Below are positions 1,164 to 6,588 of a DNA stretch of 23,340 nt, one piece after another (position 1 is the first letter of the stretch; every line of letters starts with the position of its first letter). The position numbers and the translations under genes are program-made. Origin of the DNA: a virus. The notes beneath the pieces were generated by a model. The model made no database searches. It was not told the origin of the DNA and saw only the letters and a program-made list of their open reading frames with translations. The stretch spans positions 1-23,340 of IMG/VR virus record IMGVR_UViG_3300030117_006109; one strand, given 5' to 3'.

Positions 1164-2276
1164 CTAATCGTTATCAGGGTCGTAAAAGTCTGAAGCATTG
1201 CCCTGCCTTTGGTCAAACCTGAAGATTACCTCTTCATCCATCACTTGAAGCACACGAGTCTTGAATTTCTCATCTGCCATGTACTCCATCCATCGCGATG
1301 CCTGAAACTTCTGAGAAGTTCCATCGCCCATATCAAGCTCATACCAGGCACCTCGCTGCGAGATGTGAGATGAACCCTTAATGGCGTCAAACAGGCTCTC
1401 ATCATCCTGAATACCAATTTGGTCACCCCAAAGAATCTTGAAGTTACACTGACGGCCCTGGGTGCCAAAGCGAGACTTTTCTAGCTTTACCTTAACCTCG
1501 GAGCCAATGCGAAAGCCATTCTCATCCGTGACGAAAGAAGCCTTCGCCTTACGCCCTGTGAGCCACACGCGGAGCGAATACGCATAGATCATCGCTTTTC
1601 CGCCCGGTGTCACGTAGGGGGTGGTCATAGCCTCCGCTGGCATACGTGTGATGTTAGTCTTCAGCTGGTTGAGGACCAGGAATGTAGATTGCGTATTGGC
1701 AATAGGCTGCGTGAGCTTGGACATCCCCTTGGCAAGGATGCGCGCCTTGACAGCCATTGACGACTGTGGGTTGAAGTCGCCCTCTACATCAGAGATAGCG
1801 GGAGTTAGTGCGAGAGAATCCCAGATAAATAAAACTCTGTTATCTGTTGCTCCAAGGATTTCTTCAATGGTCTCTAGCACGAATTCTACAGAAGCAGCCT
1901 GAACATACAAGAGGCTTTCTAGATCACACCCAGCCTTCACAAGGAAGGTTGGGTCAATGGCAGACTCTGAATCAAAGTATACCACGTCCATACCCATCTT
2001 CTGGGCATTGCCAGCAATCTGAGCTGCCATATAGGACTTGCCTGTAGCCTCTAGGCCGGCGATCTCTACGACCTTGCCGACAGGGATGCCGCCGAGCTTG
2101 CCTCGGCAGATGATGGAGTCCAGCCAACGTGAGCCAGTCGGAATCCAGTCCTTCACTTCGGTTGGGTTTTCTTCTGTTAGGTCGTGGGCAACATTCATGC
2201 CCGCCTTCTTGTTAATAAGATTTCTCATATCCGCCAGAGACAGCTTTCCTGTCTTGGCTTTTGAAACTCTAGCCAT
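1164..2276 (-). CDS. RecA/UvsX-type recombinase
   Basis: Strand-exchange ATPase that forms filaments on single-stranded DNA and drives recombination-dependent replication and repair. The 370-aa protein has a Walker A motif GLEATGKS (74-81), the following acidic segment FDSESAID (101-108), and a Walker B strand VLFIWDS (148-154). The region after Walker B has the polar and basic loop stretches expected of the DNA-binding loops, including NQLKTNITRMP. The C-terminus is acidic, as in RecA and UvsX. Length is close to both E. coli RecA (about 350) and T4 UvsX (about 390). The ATG at 2276 follows AAGGAG at good spacing. It sits 17 bases after the AIPR-like gene, so the two are probably co-transcribed, and near the gp32-like gene whose product it would displace on DNA. 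Confidence 0.92.
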   Translation of the reverse strand: MARVSKAKTGKLSLADMRNLINKKAGMNVAHDLTEENPTEVKDWIPTGSRWLDSIICRGKLGGIPVGKVVEIAGLEATGKSYMAAQIAGNAQKMGMDVVYFDSESAIDPTFLVKAGCDLESLLYVQAASVEFVLETIEEILGATDNRVLFIWDSLALTPAISDVEGDFNPQSSMAVKARILAKGMSKLTQPIANTQSTFLVLNQLKTNITRMPAEAMTTPYVTPGGKAMIYAYSLRVWLTGRKAKASFVTDENGFRIGSEVKVKLEKSRFGTQGRQCNFKILWGDQIGIQDDESLFDAIKGSSHISQRGAWYELDMGDGTSQKFQASRWMEYMADEKFKTRVLQVMDEEVIFRFDQRQGNASDFYDPDND

Positions 2277-2293
2277 TATTTCTCCTTATTCTT

Positions 2294-3619
2294 TCATGCT
2301 GCCGGGTCGAGCTTGATATTAAGCAAGCCCTTCCAGCTCTTATTGTAGTAGGCTTCTATCACAACACTCTCAACTTCGGTCCACATCGTGATGTCCAGCA
2401 CAAAATCGGACCAACGCGACTTATACGTGCCGGCAAAGCTGTACTTAAACCGATCGTTGATGACACCAAGGACATCCTTGCCGCAAGTTAGCCAGAGAGC
2501 CTTCATCTCCTCCATAGTTAGCCTGGGGCTGAAGGCATTTTTTGATCGATCATATCGATTGTAAGACGCCTTTATCATGGCATAGCACAGCATAGGAAGA
2601 AGATCTTTGTGCAGCCCATATTCAACAGAGCGGCCCCCGTCAAACAGTTCGCACTTGAAGGCCTTTCGTTCAGAAACGGTTGTCTTGCCAAGTTCAGCCT
2701 TTGTGGTCATCCGAACTAGGGCACATGTATCAAAGTCGCCATCCAGAACAGTTTGTGTGTTTTCTCGAATGTAGTCGGCCATGGCCAAAACTGCGTCCAC
2801 ATGAGGAATCGCTGCTTCAAATACGCCCGACCAATCCTCATGACGAAGAGCCTTGAGAACTTGCTCCCCATTCTTTGGAAACCGAGCGATGTCGGCCACG
2901 CTCTTGGTGTGGGTGAGCGGGGCGAACGCAGCCAGCATGGCAACGACCTGAGTCGCTGAACGTTCGGAGCGAATCTTGTTTCCACTGGTGTCTTTTTGAT
3001 TTTGAGCCCATAGGATGTCTTGTGTTTGGCAATAGCTGATATTATTCTTTAGGTCCTCAAACACCCCAGCGATATCAAGCTCACTCATTGCCTTTTGTTG
3101 GCTCCGACAATTCACAGCCTTTGCTACTCCTCGTATATCACTTAAGCTGTCAAAAACAGATCGTGGAACAAGAGAGACCATTAAGTGCTGTTCGTGCTCA
3201 ACGGGCCTCTTCGTATCTGCCACGGCCTGATCGACGGCGTTCATTGTGTGCTGGCCATCGTAATGACCTGTATACTCTTCAGAGCAAGTAAACTCTATAT
3301 ACGATTTTCCGTCCTCTTCTTCAACATTTAAGGATTCATCATCATAGATAACGTGCACCCCTCCACTCTTAACCCCAAAAACTGGGTCCGTGGCGTAGGC
3401 TTCGCGAATCTCCCTAGAGAGGCGGTTTGTGGCATCGAGATATCGAGGGTTAGGCCCCTTCGGAATCTGGGATAACGCATGTTCCTCAGTGGGGCTCACC
3501 AGAGCGATTACCCGCCAATTGACGATGTCGCCATCCCCACTCAGGGGAGCGCGTGCAATCGCATCAGCGCCCGAGCCACACAAGGGTAGTCGGATTTTTC
3601 TAATTGTGTCTGTATTCAT
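2294..3619 (-). CDS. AIPR/DGQHR-like protein (abortive-infection family resemblance)
   Basis: A 441-aa protein whose N-terminal half resembles the AIPR (abortive infection phage resistance) family and the related DGQHR/DndB-like group. The features appear in the family's order: NPRYL (57-61), the strand SGGVHVIYDD (85-94) where AIPR proteins have their 'NNGI' strand, the signature HYDGQHTMNAV (119-129) matching 'NGxQT' or 'DGQHR', and then IRGVAKAVNCRSQQ (162-175), like the 'IAxAxNxQ' helix. The C-terminal 200 residues are unfamiliar to me. The ATG at 3619 follows AAGAAGG. It lies between the single-stranded DNA-binding protein and the recombinase and is transcribed with them, which suggests a DNA-related role. 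Function is unknown: it could counter or mimic a host defence, or exclude rival phages. The family link is by eye only. Confidence 0.6.
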   Translation of the reverse strand: MNTDTIRKIRLPLCGSGADAIARAPLSGDGDIVNWRVIALVSPTEEHALSQIPKGPNPRYLDATNRLSREIREAYATDPVFGVKSGGVHVIYDDESLNVEEEDGKSYIEFTCSEEYTGHYDGQHTMNAVDQAVADTKRPVEHEQHLMVSLVPRSVFDSLSDIRGVAKAVNCRSQQKAMSELDIAGVFEDLKNNISYCQTQDILWAQNQKDTSGNKIRSERSATQVVAMLAAFAPLTHTKSVADIARFPKNGEQVLKALRHEDWSGVFEAAIPHVDAVLAMADYIRENTQTVLDGDFDTCALVRMTTKAELGKTTVSERKAFKCELFDGGRSVEYGLHKDLLPMLCYAMIKASYNRYDRSKNAFSPRLTMEEMKALWLTCGKDVLGVINDRFKYSFAGTYKSRWSDFVLDITMWTEVESVVIEAYYNKSWKGLLNIKLDPAA

Positions 3620-3689
3620 TTTTACCTTCTTTCTTTGTTAATGCCACATCTGAGCGATCTGCTCGTGGCTGTATTAAATGAAAATCTAA

Positions 3690-3720
3690 CAAGGCGGGGC
3701 ACCTGTAAACCCGTGCCCCC
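3690..3720 (-). terminator. possible weak terminator after the single-stranded DNA-binding protein gene
   Basis: GGGGCAC (3696-3702) pairs perfectly with GTGCCCC (3713-3719) around a 10-base loop, giving a 7-bp GC-rich stem within 40 bases of the gp32-like stop codon. On the minus strand it is followed by a T-rich but interrupted stretch (GCCTTGTTAGATTTTC), so termination would be partial. It would make the abundant SSB transcript separable from the AIPR-like and recombinase genes. A role as an RNA 3'-end stabiliser is also possible. Confidence 0.45.
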
Positions 3721-3735
3721 CTGCGGTATTTTGTT

Positions 3736-4491
3736 TTAAGCGTTCATCAGCTCATTGAACGCATTGTCCACTGAGTCGGTGTTCTTGTTCGCATACTGTA
3801 CGGTCTCCGTAGAGTTACCTTCTGCGTCCACGCCACCGGAGATGAACTCCTCTAGAAGCTTCTCAACTTCAGCAGAAGTCTTACGCTCAAAAAGTTCCAT
3901 GATATCCTGAATAGAGTTCAGGTGCATTGTCGTCGTATCCGCATCCTCAGAGAGGGGAGACGGCCGTCGACGAGGCTGCAACTTTGTCTGCGGGAAGGAG
4001 GCGCCAGGAGGCTTACCATAATTAAGCACCAGGTCAGTCCCCTCCTCGGTATCAGTAATATCACCATAATCTGGGTTAAGAACTAGATTTAGCAGACTCT
4101 CATAAGCGGTCTTTCCATAACCCCACCAGCGAACACCGTCAGTCTCCTCGCCACGGACAAGAACCGGGCTAAAGAAGCGCTGTCGCACGAAGAGGCTCTT
4201 TGCCATCTTCTTGGAGGACTCATCATTCTTGTCTGCTCCTTCGCGCCATAGATTGGAAGCGAAGTCGCAGATGGGACAGGAGTCCCCGAAATTGCGCTTA
4301 GGGCATAGAATGCCCCCCTTAGTTACATTATAGTGAAAATAGACCTCCTTGAAGGGGTCGCCGTCTGCGGTAGGCACCACGCGAATTGTCTGGTTGCCAT
4401 CGTTTGGGCGCCAAAAGGCACTCTTGGAGCTATCTCCATTGTTCTGAACTGCAGCGAGCTTTGCTCGCATCTTTTCTAGATTGATTCCCAT
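3736..4491 (-). CDS. single-stranded DNA-binding protein, T4 gp32-like
   Basis: Coats single-stranded DNA at forks and recombination intermediates. The 251-aa protein has the gp32 layout: a short basic N-terminus, an OB-fold core beginning around FWRPNDGNQTIRVVP (26-40), and an inserted zinc site with His53, Cys63, Cys72 and Cys75 (H-x9-C-x8-C-x2-C, very close to the spacing in T4 gp32). This is followed by a low-complexity acidic tail (about 180-251) of the kind that recruits partner proteins. It is somewhat shorter than T4 gp32 (301 aa). The ATG at 4491 follows AAAGGA. A perfect-consensus promoter and a hairpin leader precede it, fitting high and autoregulated expression. The name gp32-like rests on zinc spacing and architecture. 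Confidence 0.88.
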   Translation of the reverse strand: MGINLEKMRAKLAAVQNNGDSSKSAFWRPNDGNQTIRVVPTADGDPFKEVYFHYNVTKGGILCPKRNFGDSCPICDFASNLWREGADKNDESSKKMAKSLFVRQRFFSPVLVRGEETDGVRWWGYGKTAYESLLNLVLNPDYGDITDTEEGTDLVLNYGKPPGASFPQTKLQPRRRPSPLSEDADTTTMHLNSIQDIMELFERKTSAEVEKLLEEFISGGVDAEGNSTETVQYANKNTDSVDNAFNELMNA

Positions 4492-4551: not shown

Positions 4552-4580
4552 ATTATATCAAAATTTGGGTGTAATGTCAA
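4552..4580 (-). promoter_or_regulatory. perfect-consensus sigma70 promoter for the gp32-like gene
   Basis: On the minus strand TTGACA (4580-4575) and TATAAT (4557-4552) match the bacterial consensus at all twelve positions and are separated by the optimal 17 bases. The predicted start near 4545 gives a leader of about 54 bases. The -35 box overlaps the last codons of the tubulin-like gene. This is the best promoter in the window. Confidence 0.9.
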
Positions 4581-5413
4581 GAACTATTTTCTTGAATTAG
4601 TGAGCTGTAGGCTACGCAATAAACATAGTCTTTGTCGTACTGAGTAGGGTATATCCCATACGTGGTTTTAGTGTTTTTGGCGTTTTCTTTAACCTGTGCT
4701 ATGACCTTTTTATGAATCCCACTCTGCTCTCTTAATTTCTCTTCATTGATAGCATAATAATACACTTTTTCTCGCACGTTGTCAAGGTTAAAAAACAACT
4801 TTTCTTCGCCCGTATCGAAATTCACCAAACCATAAGAGACAATGCGACTAACCTGATGAGGGGGAGAAATATTATCCATAATACTATGGGTGTGGCGCAA
4901 CACATTGACCATATGCATAGTAGGGACCACTAATTCATTTAGTTGGTCATAAAATCCAATTATGGGGACATCACCAAGTATTTCTTCAAGCCTAAAATTG
5001 TCGATTAAAATGCAACTTTGAAATGCTCCGGAGCGCGCATATTCTTGAAAAACGTTAAAAGTTAGCCTTTGTTGAAGCCTGGCTGTCTCTCCGAGCAGTT
5101 CCGGGTCAGAATACACATACAACACATGTATACTGCACTTTTTTAGCTGCTCCAAAATGCGAAGAGAGGCTCCGCTTATCGTTCCTGAACCTCCAACAAT
5201 AAAAAGCAGCTCCCCATTCACATCTTTAAAGAACCGCTTTAAACTGCCTAGGGACTCTTCATAGTCTTCTGGGCGTGGCCCACCTTTAATCCCATAATTT
5301 CGTGGATTGCGCTTAAGCCCAACATCCATTTTGTAAACATCGTACTGAGGGTATTTAGCAAACCTCTCGGCGATCGCACAGCCGGCGCGGCCAAGGCCAA
5401 TTATTGTTTCCAT
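4577..5413 (-). CDS. tubulin/FtsZ-like GTPase-fold protein (divergent)
   Basis: A 278-aa protein that I read as a divergent tubulin/FtsZ relative. In order: IIGLGRAGCAIAERF (4-18) like the FtsZ T1 loop and helix; FIVGGSGTISGAS (71-83), where GSGTISG parallels the tubulin signature GGGTGSG; LIDNFRLEEI (136-145) like FtsZ 'IPNDRLLEI'; FYDQLNELVV (154-163) at the guanine-contacting helix H7; and a C-terminal strand pair TTYGIYPTQYDKDYVYCVAY (250-269) like the FtsZ end 'IIFG...VTVIATG'. The expected catalytic T7 loop region (about 180-195, NISPPHQVSR) lacks clear acidic residues, so GTP hydrolysis or polymerisation may be altered. It overlaps the polymerase end by 13 bases with only a weak ribosome site (GAGAG), so translation is probably coupled. 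An NAD-binding Rossmann protein is the main alternative. Confidence 0.55.
   Translation of the reverse strand: METIIGLGRAGCAIAERFAKYPQYDVYKMDVGLKRNPRNYGIKGGPRPEDYEESLGSLKRFFKDVNGELLFIVGGSGTISGASLRILEQLKKCSIHVLYVYSDPELLGETARLQQRLTFNVFQEYARSGAFQSCILIDNFRLEEILGDVPIIGFYDQLNELVVPTMHMVNVLRHTHSIMDNISPPHQVSRIVSYGLVNFDTGEEKLFFNLDNVREKVYYYAINEEKLREQSGIHKKVIAQVKENAKNTKTTYGIYPTQYDKDYVYCVAYSSLIQENSS
4757..4785 (-). promoter_or_regulatory. second sigma70 promoter, inside the tubulin-like gene, reading toward the gp32-like gene
   Basis: On the minus strand TTGACA (4785-4780) and TATTAT (4762-4757) are 17 bases apart; the -10 box matches at five of six positions. It lies inside the 3' part of the tubulin-like coding region and would give a second, longer transcript for the single-stranded DNA-binding protein. 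Because it overlaps coding sequence the match could be chance, but the perfect -35 box with 17-base spacing makes that less likely. Confidence 0.55.
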
Positions 5414-6588
5414 TCTCTCATATCCCCATAGTTCTTCCCATATTTTACATTAACTCCAAACTTTCCTAAAGGAGTATTTGAAAAATGTTCAACCAAGGAG
5501 TTGATTAAAAGGCACTCCTCGTCTGTAACGTCAAGCACAACCTCATCGTGTACACAGAATGCAACATGTGAGTTCTTATCGTGAAGATAGTTGTCAAGCT
5601 TGATCATCTGACGCAGAACAATATCAGAGCAGGTGCTCTGGATAAGGTAACTCATTGCGTGATGCTCATCGGCAGAGATTGTGCGGCCAAATGGGTTCGT
5701 GATGGCGTTGTCATACCAATATTTTTCCATCACAGCGCTCTTGTCATAAACATAATCTGTCACACTATCGCGAGAACGAGGGTTATATAGCCACGCAAAA
5801 AACCTCTCTTTAACTTCCTCGCGAGTGCCCACCCCCTTGTATACATTTTGACGATTCCACTCGTGGACGTCGAAGTCGGGCTGCTCCATATCACTCAAAG
5901 CCAGGAAAGTCCGAAGCTCTGCCCCGTTAAAATCAAACGAAACAAACCATCCATTAGTGGGCACCACAACCTTTCTAAACTTCTTATCCATCGTCAGAAT
6001 CGGAAAACTATTCTTCTTTGTCGTGAGGCGTCCTGTTTTTGTGCCAAAGATGTTATAGTCGCAACAAAGTGAAATCTGATTTAACTTTTGTGTAAACTGG
6101 CGCGCGCGCTTTTCGTGCATAATGTCTCGAAGTGCCCATGGGTCAACCTGGATCTTTCGATGCTTAATGTCGTAAAGGACCTTGGTCAAGTCAACAAGGA
6201 AATCATAGTTTTCCGGCTGATAATGTGTGCTGAGAACATACTCGGTAATTTTGTTTCTCATCTCACAATATTCTCGCAGGAAGCGTGCGTTCACGAGGTC
6301 AAAAAAACAGTTTTGAGTAAGGTCTATTTTGGCCGCCGTAAAGGCACGCAGGAAAGCCTTCATTCTTCCATTGATGGTTTCCCACTCTACAGCGAGGTGG
6401 GGCGGACAGGCCTCTTCCAGAGGCTTCTGGGCGTATAAGAAGGCATACTCTACGTTGGCCCTATTTCGCAGAAACGCAGAATAGCTCCAGGTGCGAGTTA
6501 AGTCTTGCGGAATGGTGTCAAAATGCAACTCACCGTTACAGTAAACTCCGACACATTCACTTTTGTCGTCAAGTGCTTGGAATAACAT
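5401..6588 (-). CDS. compact family A DNA polymerase, polymerase domain only
   Basis: Template-directed DNA synthesis, presumably the phage replicase. The 395-aa protein keeps the family A landmarks: TGRL (185-188) before the palm; motif A FDFNGAELR (218-226, metal Asp219, steric-gate Glu224), corresponding to DYSQIELR; motif B with Arg256, Lys260, Phe264 and Tyr268, matching E. coli Pol I Arg754, Lys758, Phe762 and Tyr766; the LIQSTCSDIV helix (315-324), like 'PIQGTAADI'; and motif C VHDEV (346-350, metal Asp348). The distance between the two metal Asp residues is 129, against 177 in E. coli Pol I, so fingers and palm are shortened. No 3'-5' exonuclease motifs are visible in residues 1-150. 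The start codon shares one base with the stop of the upstream 401-aa gene (TAATG). Confidence 0.88.
   Translation of the reverse strand: MLFQALDDKSECVGVYCNGELHFDTIPQDLTRTWSYSAFLRNRANVEYAFLYAQKPLEEACPPHLAVEWETINGRMKAFLRAFTAAKIDLTQNCFFDLVNARFLREYCEMRNKITEYVLSTHYQPENYDFLVDLTKVLYDIKHRKIQVDPWALRDIMHEKRARQFTQKLNQISLCCDYNIFGTKTGRLTTKKNSFPILTMDKKFRKVVVPTNGWFVSFDFNGAELRTFLALSDMEQPDFDVHEWNRQNVYKGVGTREEVKERFFAWLYNPRSRDSVTDYVYDKSAVMEKYWYDNAITNPFGRTISADEHHAMSYLIQSTCSDIVLRQMIKLDNYLHDKNSHVAFCVHDEVVLDVTDEECLLINSLVEHFSNTPLGKFGVNVKYGKNYGDMREWKQ

Follow-up and report, generated by a model that had tools for sequence, protein, structure and literature searches.

AIPR genes have been reported in restriction-modification operons in the available portions of two papers (PMC2292703, PMC3506569), and the latter portion also states that AIPR proteins have an N-terminal HEPN domain and assigns the N-terminal domain of DndB to the AbiU1/AIPR family. 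DndB itself is described as a regulator, an ATP-dependent repressor, in a literature that includes the accessible text of PMC12704722; the same text lists Noc and ParB as proteins of the ParB/Srx fold, and the GmrS domain is given this fold in the accessible text of PMC4619093. A further compact system, PD-lambda-5, is called a "compacted prophage version of an RM+Abi system" in the available part of PMC9519451. Among the papers covered by our literature search, only a few of them subscription papers, the portions available held no account of AIPR genes in phage replication modules. Here, we analysed an IMG/VR virus record of 23,340 bases (the window), in which an AIPR-like gene lies between the genes for a single-stranded DNA-binding protein (SSB) and the RecA recombinase. 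The features of the locus are listed in Table 1.

Table 1. Features of the AIPR-like locus in the window.
Feature	Coordinates	Strand	Details
RecA/UvsX recombinase, downstream neighbour	1164..2276	(-)	PF00154, E 4.3e-36
Exchangeable cassette	2290..3794	(-)	homology to L002 (sister phage) breaks off at 3794 and returns at 2290
AIPR-family gene, divergent phage branch	2294..3619	(-)	441 aa, intact ORF
Predicted domains of the AIPR-like protein			model: ParB/Srx-like N-terminal domain, about residues 36-175; helical C-terminal part
HYDGQHT codons (residues 119-125)	3245..3265	(-)	AIPR-named plasmid proteins have [DN]GGHT at the equivalent place
NPRYL codons (residues 57-61)	3437..3451	(-)	N57, P58 and R59 invariant in 28/28 rows
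Weak terminator-like hairpin, gap between SSB and AIPR-like gene	3692..3704	(-)	possible attenuation
gp32-like SSB, upstream neighbour	3736..4491	(-)	PF08804 gp32, E 1e-17
Sigma-70-like promoter before SSB	4552..4580	(-)	perfect 12/12, TTGACA-17-TATAAT, extended -10

The AIPR-like gene starts with ATG, and an AGAAGG-type Shine-Dalgarno stretch stands before the start. Its product carries NPRYL (residues 57-61), SGGVHVI (85-91), DGQHT (121-125) and AKAVNCRSQQ (166-175), so all the motifs named in the preliminary description are present and in the order given there; the Pfam matches of both neighbours likewise agree with the position between SSB and RecA that it had assigned. It had also called the phage lytic-type, a label that the record, a 23-kb fragment, does not bear out. 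Genes for a family A DNA polymerase, a 5'-3' exonuclease and a dCMP deaminase lie nearby on the same strand. Because the promoter scan of the window listed no promoter-like site between the SSB gene and the AIPR-like gene, we infer that the latter is transcribed by read-through from the SSB promoter. The G+C content of the AIPR-like gene (0.498) is like that of its neighbours (SSB, 0.511; RecA, 0.503). In five of six pairs of close homologues dN/dS was 0.14-0.21, and in the sixth it was 0.45 at a dS of only 0.011, which shows that the gene is under purifying selection.

Two other genes of the same region deserve mention. Between the SSB and DNA polymerase genes lies a gene for a tubulin/FtsZ-like protein (4577-5413, (-)), which has the motif GGSGTISGAS and is kept in relatives at 30-51% identity (ten aligned); its PF00091 match (E 0.0086) is below the cut-off, and a PDB sequence search with an 11-sequence profile returned no tubulin. 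The family A DNA polymerase is very short (395 aa), Pfam reported no 3'-5' exonuclease domain in it, and the 5'-3' exonuclease is encoded by a separate gene (5401-6588 and 1-720, respectively, both (-)).

The window protein had no match in Pfam, NCBIfam or PADLOC at E<=10 or by tblastn in 50,697 phage records (INPHARED) at E<=0.01, and its PHROGs matches were noise only (E 0.17). Since the protein had no database matches, RecA was used to find phage relatives. Among the best 80 IMG/VR loci of a longer list of RecA relatives, only L073 has an AIPR-like homologue (40% identity), and a profile search of the whole records found the gene absent from 79 of these 80 (0/40 and 1/40 in two sets). Searching with a two-sequence alignment led to 39 viral loci, and a 22-sequence alignment brought the total to 40. 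These 40 further IMG/VR contigs, whose homologues are 24-44% identical to the window protein where aligned (the closest being L082, 44%), show that the AIPR-like gene is more than a chance reading frame. The contigs are probably of marine origin. A collection of bacterial and archaeal genomes yielded no relative of either the AIPR-like protein or the window RecA in peptide-pattern scans, a method limited to close relatives; tblastn found no match for the homologue L088 in the INPHARED phages or for the homologue L114 in plasmids. The preliminary description had asked whether homologues in other phages also neighbour these two genes, and they do: of the 41 loci, window included, 33 have the gene between SSB and RecA, 2 have it after RecA, and in 6 SSB or RecA is out of view. 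Two other phage records also contain AIPR genes, namely Bacillus phage Goe8 (161,583 bases, L153:8947-9975) and an IMG/VR record of 239,374 bases (L168:5001-5519).

We compared the phage proteins with the AIPR family at the level of profiles. PF10592 matched 3 of the 22 aligned members of alignment A2 at E<=1 (best 8.2e-6), and in a six-frame search it matched 5 of 23 records at E<=10, of which 2 passed the cut-off; most homologues are below it, and L088 is above it (26.1 bits against 25). The homologue L114 matched the "putative AIPR protein" of Bacillus phage Goe8 weakly (E 0.1), and the Goe8 protein in turn led to 47 plasmid records, with most of the 30 listed named "AIPR family protein". 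Ten of these plasmid proteins and the Goe8 protein made up alignment A5 (11 sequences, 342-496 aa), which represents the nearer part of AIPR because it was built through similarity to one member of the phage group. In hhalign, the 22 phage sequences aligned with A5 at 99.4% probability (E 1.2e-21, 348 columns, 13% identity); in the controls, the probability did not exceed 0.9% for 20 column-shuffled profiles and was 0.1% for the reversed one. The motifs NPR, N.GI, [DN]GGHT (here GHYDGQH[TS]), A.N, S and F..K are common to both groups. PDB sequence searches with A2 and A5 gave no relevant match. The profile-profile alignment, the one homologue over the cut-off and the predicted fold described below support placing the window protein in the AIPR family, within a new and divergent branch from phages.

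The DndB/DGQHR family was rejected. At E<=10, PF14072 matched none of 24 records, compared with 3 of 14 control genomes, and the NCBIfam models, TIGR03187 among them, gave no match to the window protein. In ParB-type proteins the arginine that follows DGQH binds nucleotide (NTP). In the 28-row homologue alignment, where N57, P58, R59, G118-G122, H124, R163 and N170 are invariant, position 125 is T in 16 rows, S in 10, A in 1 and N in 1, and never R. The AIPR-named proteins of A5 also have T or S after the motif histidine, and therefore the missing arginine is a trait of the family. Thus, of the AIPR/DGQHR reading in the preliminary description, the AIPR part is supported, through L088, the profile-profile alignment and the fold although the window protein itself has no Pfam match, and the DGQHR/DndB part is not: the link of the AIPR-like protein to that family is at the level of the ParB/Srx superfamily only.

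An AlphaFold model of the window protein built with 28 sequences had a mean pLDDT of 90.2 and a pTM of 0.87; a single-sequence fold was poor (pLDDT 34.6) and was discarded. The best BFVD match of the model was A0A8S5R496, an "AIPR protein" of Podoviridae sp. ct8nN1 (E 6e-7, probability 1.00, TM 0.44/0.51), and GmrSD N-terminal domains appeared further down. Foldseek against the PDB returned nothing at E<=0.001. When the first 1000 Foldseek entries were aligned with VIA-align, seven had Z>=2, namely two of Noc (the first with Z 6.1 and an rmsd of 3.3 across 94 aligned residues), two of BrxU (5.4), one of ParB-N (4.6) and two of SspE (4.1), all of them ParB/Srx-fold proteins. Since all Z values are below 8, a ParB/Srx fold of the N-terminal domain is likely, not proven. 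Canonical ParB membership was rejected, as the ParB_N profile (PF02195) matched 0 of 26 records at E<=10 versus 11 of 14 controls. The model places strands at the N-terminus and the helices towards the C-terminus; no HEPN match was listed, which excludes nothing.

Several known systems resemble the phage protein in part. The short AIPR (PF10592) members of plasmids and phages (e.g. vB_BmeM-Goe8 YP_009850102.1) share the motif order NPR - N.GI - [DN]GGHT - A.N - S - F..K, whereas the phage branch has GHYDGQH for GGH, the location between SSB and RecA, and the coupling to a methyltransferase described below. In Goe8 and the ten plasmids, the AIPR genes have other annotated neighbours, among which no recA or SSB is named. 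In two cyanobacterial plasmids (L159, L163), an AIPR gene is near partition genes, ParB in one and ParM in the other. GmrS/DUF262 proteins such as BrxU are similar in the predicted N-terminal domain, with BrxU aligned over 252 residues, most of the model, at an rmsd of 11.8; a DGQQR-type motif at a similar place is described in PMC4619093. The predicted ParB/Srx-type N-terminal domain also resembles SspE. Unlike BrxU and SspE, however, the phage protein lacks the motif arginine, and an HNH (GmrD-type) domain was not recognised in it. DndB/DGQHR proteins (PF14072, TIGR03187) share the DGQH core of the motif and differ in the absence of a profile match and of the arginine, and phosphorothioation genes were not seen in the window. 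Some relatives have a compact gene pair with a D12-type methyltransferase, as do PD-lambda-5 and type II restriction-modification systems, and the methyltransferase of L098 matched PD-Lambda-5_B in PADLOC (E 9.2e-20), although a type II methyltransferase model matched it better (E 1.5e-50). Unlike in PD-lambda-5, the window protein, L088 and L109 had no PADLOC match and thus none to PD-Lambda-5_A (a search of the window record with PD-Lambda-5_A alone is uninformative, as the controls gave no match either), and unlike in type II systems, the window record has no recognised methyltransferase.

The place between SSB and RecA is an exchangeable slot. In the sister phage L002, whose RecA is 97% identical, the slot holds a D12 adenine methyltransferase gene (PF02086, E 2.2e-29), and its flanks are 85% and 87% identical to those of the window. 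Alleles are exchanged as well: in L090 and L103, RecA is 93.4% and SSB 92.2% identical, while the AIPR-like proteins are only 27.6% identical. Across 17 loci, left after dereplication of the 25 in which all three genes are nearly complete, the Mantel correlation was 0.37 for AIPR and RecA versus 0.75 for SSB and RecA. On a RecA tree of 108 rows, which were selected for similarity to RecA or AIPR and are thus a biased sample, the slot is empty in 51, holds AIPR in 18, AIPR and methyltransferase in 11, methyltransferase in 8 and other genes in 19, and is unknown in 1; AIPR presence changes at least eight times, with L092 inside an otherwise empty-slot clade. We also surveyed 114 loci with SSB and RecA, of which two reversed duplicates (L121, L125) were set aside to leave 112. 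An empty slot, defined as an SSB-RecA distance of <200 nt without any ORF of >=50 aa, was present in 52 of the 112, including L082, where the AIPR-like gene follows RecA. When the slot ORFs were clustered, two families dominated, AIPR-like (33 ORFs) and D12 methyltransferase (26 ORFs); a Pfam check of five of these 26 (L002, L013, L098, L099, L114) gave PF02086 for all at E<=1e-24. The best reading of the gene is that of an accessory, exchangeable cassette in a large group of uncultured tailed phages.

Other proteins also occupy the slot. A protein of 147-186 aa (cluster 2), FKBP-type prolyl isomerase-like by eye, occurs in nine loci (L028, L035, L037, L047, L049, L054, L057, L062 and L065). 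ParB-like motifs (DGCTR, LGHHR, GHTR) were seen by eye in three proteins in or near the slot (L013:1369-2505, L034:1850-3025, L082:4760-5485), two of which adjoin a D12-type methyltransferase; their ParB-like reading was not confirmed by Pfam (L013, L034), PDB (L013, L034) or PF02195.

Relatives of the window gene are linked to DNA methyltransferases. A D12 methyltransferase gene lies directly downstream of the AIPR-like gene in 18 of the 41 loci, of which 37 have a visible downstream side; in the other 19 of the 37, the window included, it does not. Start codons (ATG, GTG or TTG) were assigned mechanically. On that basis the two genes abut, or share up to 4 nt, at 11 of the 12 junctions with coordinates, and only in L086 are they separated, by 32 nt; at two additional junctions, the genes overlap in L096 and stand a few nt apart in L109. 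In L082 the methyltransferase is one small ORF past the AIPR-like gene. Counted by contig, a slot methyltransferase is present in 18 of 37 AIPR loci versus 8 of 78 non-AIPR loci (Fisher p 1.9e-5), but phylogenetically independent pairs, of which there were five and hence too few, did not support the association (median p 1). The D12, N6_N4 and C5 methyltransferase profiles (PF02086, PF01555, PF00145) matched nothing in the window record and nothing in the further AIPR-only records that the search covered (<=83.6 kb, all of them possibly fragments). An obligatory methyltransferase partner is thus unsupported.

In some loci the slot methyltransferase is followed by a possible restriction endonuclease gene (L077:4820-5929, L064:4380-5345, L075:3240-4382, L108:3887-4933, L038:1262-2017, L080:1640-2752). 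The L077 gene gave the only PADLOC REase_II match, a weak one (E 0.0022); Pfam found none for L077 and L108 and nothing relevant for L064 and L075, and PDB sequence searches with L108 and L077 gave nothing relevant.

A role in modification-linked conflict, as an effector or in counter-defence, is the most likely one for the AIPR-like gene. The explanation that we favour, at about even confidence, is that the gene is an exchangeable accessory cassette that takes part in DNA-modification-linked conflict and not in core replication. The slot otherwise holds a D12 methyltransferase alone, an AIPR-like gene together with a methyltransferase, or a methyltransferase with a possible restriction endonuclease, and the AIPR-like gene would be transcribed together with SSB and RecA from the strong promoter. 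Its product may recognise DNA, probably by modification state, through a ParB/Srx-type pocket that would consist of the [DN]GxH[TS] motif and the invariant N57-P58-R59, R163 and N170. It could then be an effector directed against competing or host DNA, which it would attack or silence, or one that triggers a nucleotide-dependent shut-down, with self DNA presumably spared through methylation or timing, and it may act in this way in the window phage. Against this explanation stand the absence of the NTP-binding arginine from the motif, the loci that have no methyltransferase directly downstream together with the unsupportive independent pairs, the window and other AIPR-only records in which the methyltransferase profiles matched nothing, and the restriction footprint of the window, where no 4-base palindrome was clearly avoided. 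A more specific version, which we consider speculative and rather doubtful, is that these phages carry minimal weapons of a restriction-modification type in the replication operon: AIPR would stand in for the restriction enzyme and be paired with a Dam-type methyltransferase by translational coupling, AIPR genes on their own, such as that of the window, would be streamlined forms that use another mark, and allele swapping would reflect a phage-versus-phage battlefield.

Counter-defence is the strongest of the alternatives, a possible explanation to which we give clearly less weight than to the effector cassette. Here, the protein would shield phage DNA from, or neutralise, a modification-dependent or AIPR-containing host defence, acting as a shield, decoy or nucleotide sink, and the AIPR-like and D12 methyltransferase genes would replace each other because the methyltransferase does the same job chemically. 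In L002 a lone methyltransferase takes exactly the place of the AIPR-like gene, and the gene itself is located among early replication genes behind a strong promoter; both are consistent with such a role, and the accessible text of a 2025 survey describes phage ParB-fold proteins fused to DNA methyltransferases, for which anti-defence is suggested (PMC12704722). However, the two genes occur together in 18 of the 37 visible loci and so are not simple alternatives, and the invariance of NPR, GHYDGxH, R163 and N170 suggests a kept active site and not an inert decoy. Superinfection exclusion and anti-defence, both raised in the preliminary description, would fit the genomic context.

Far less probable is that the protein assists SSB or RecA as an accessory factor in replication or recombination, and a core replication role is unlikely. 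The recurrent position beside these genes, between them in most loci and after RecA in two more, the shared strand and the similar G+C content would fit such a factor, but the gene is absent from most relatives and is replaced or missing in near-identical backgrounds, its divergence tracks SSB and RecA poorly, and the annotated AIPR neighbourhoods of one phage and ten plasmids name neither gene. The ancestral role in replication or recombination that had been raised in the preliminary description is not supported by the same data: the gene is missing from nearly all nearest-RecA records, a methyltransferase takes its place in L002, and the alleles swap independently of the neighbouring genes. 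Equally improbable is a DndB- or ParB-like role in regulation or DNA maintenance, in which the protein would control the operon or the organisation of the genome and take no part in conflict; this would suit the predicted ParB/Srx-type domain and the two cyanobacterial plasmids but not the absence of ParB_N and DndB profile matches or the allele swapping and alternation with methyltransferase genes, which are more typical of conflict cassettes.

AIPR proteins have long been tied to restriction-modification loci, and the literature searched, in the portions available, gives no mechanism for them. The compact AIPR-methyltransferase pair, swapped between near-identical phages at one fixed site, provides natural test pairs (with the gene, without it, with a methyltransferase and with both), through which a role of AIPR in DNA-modification conflict can be tested directly. 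In this uncultured phage group, the SSB-RecA junction is also a place in which to seek conflict genes.
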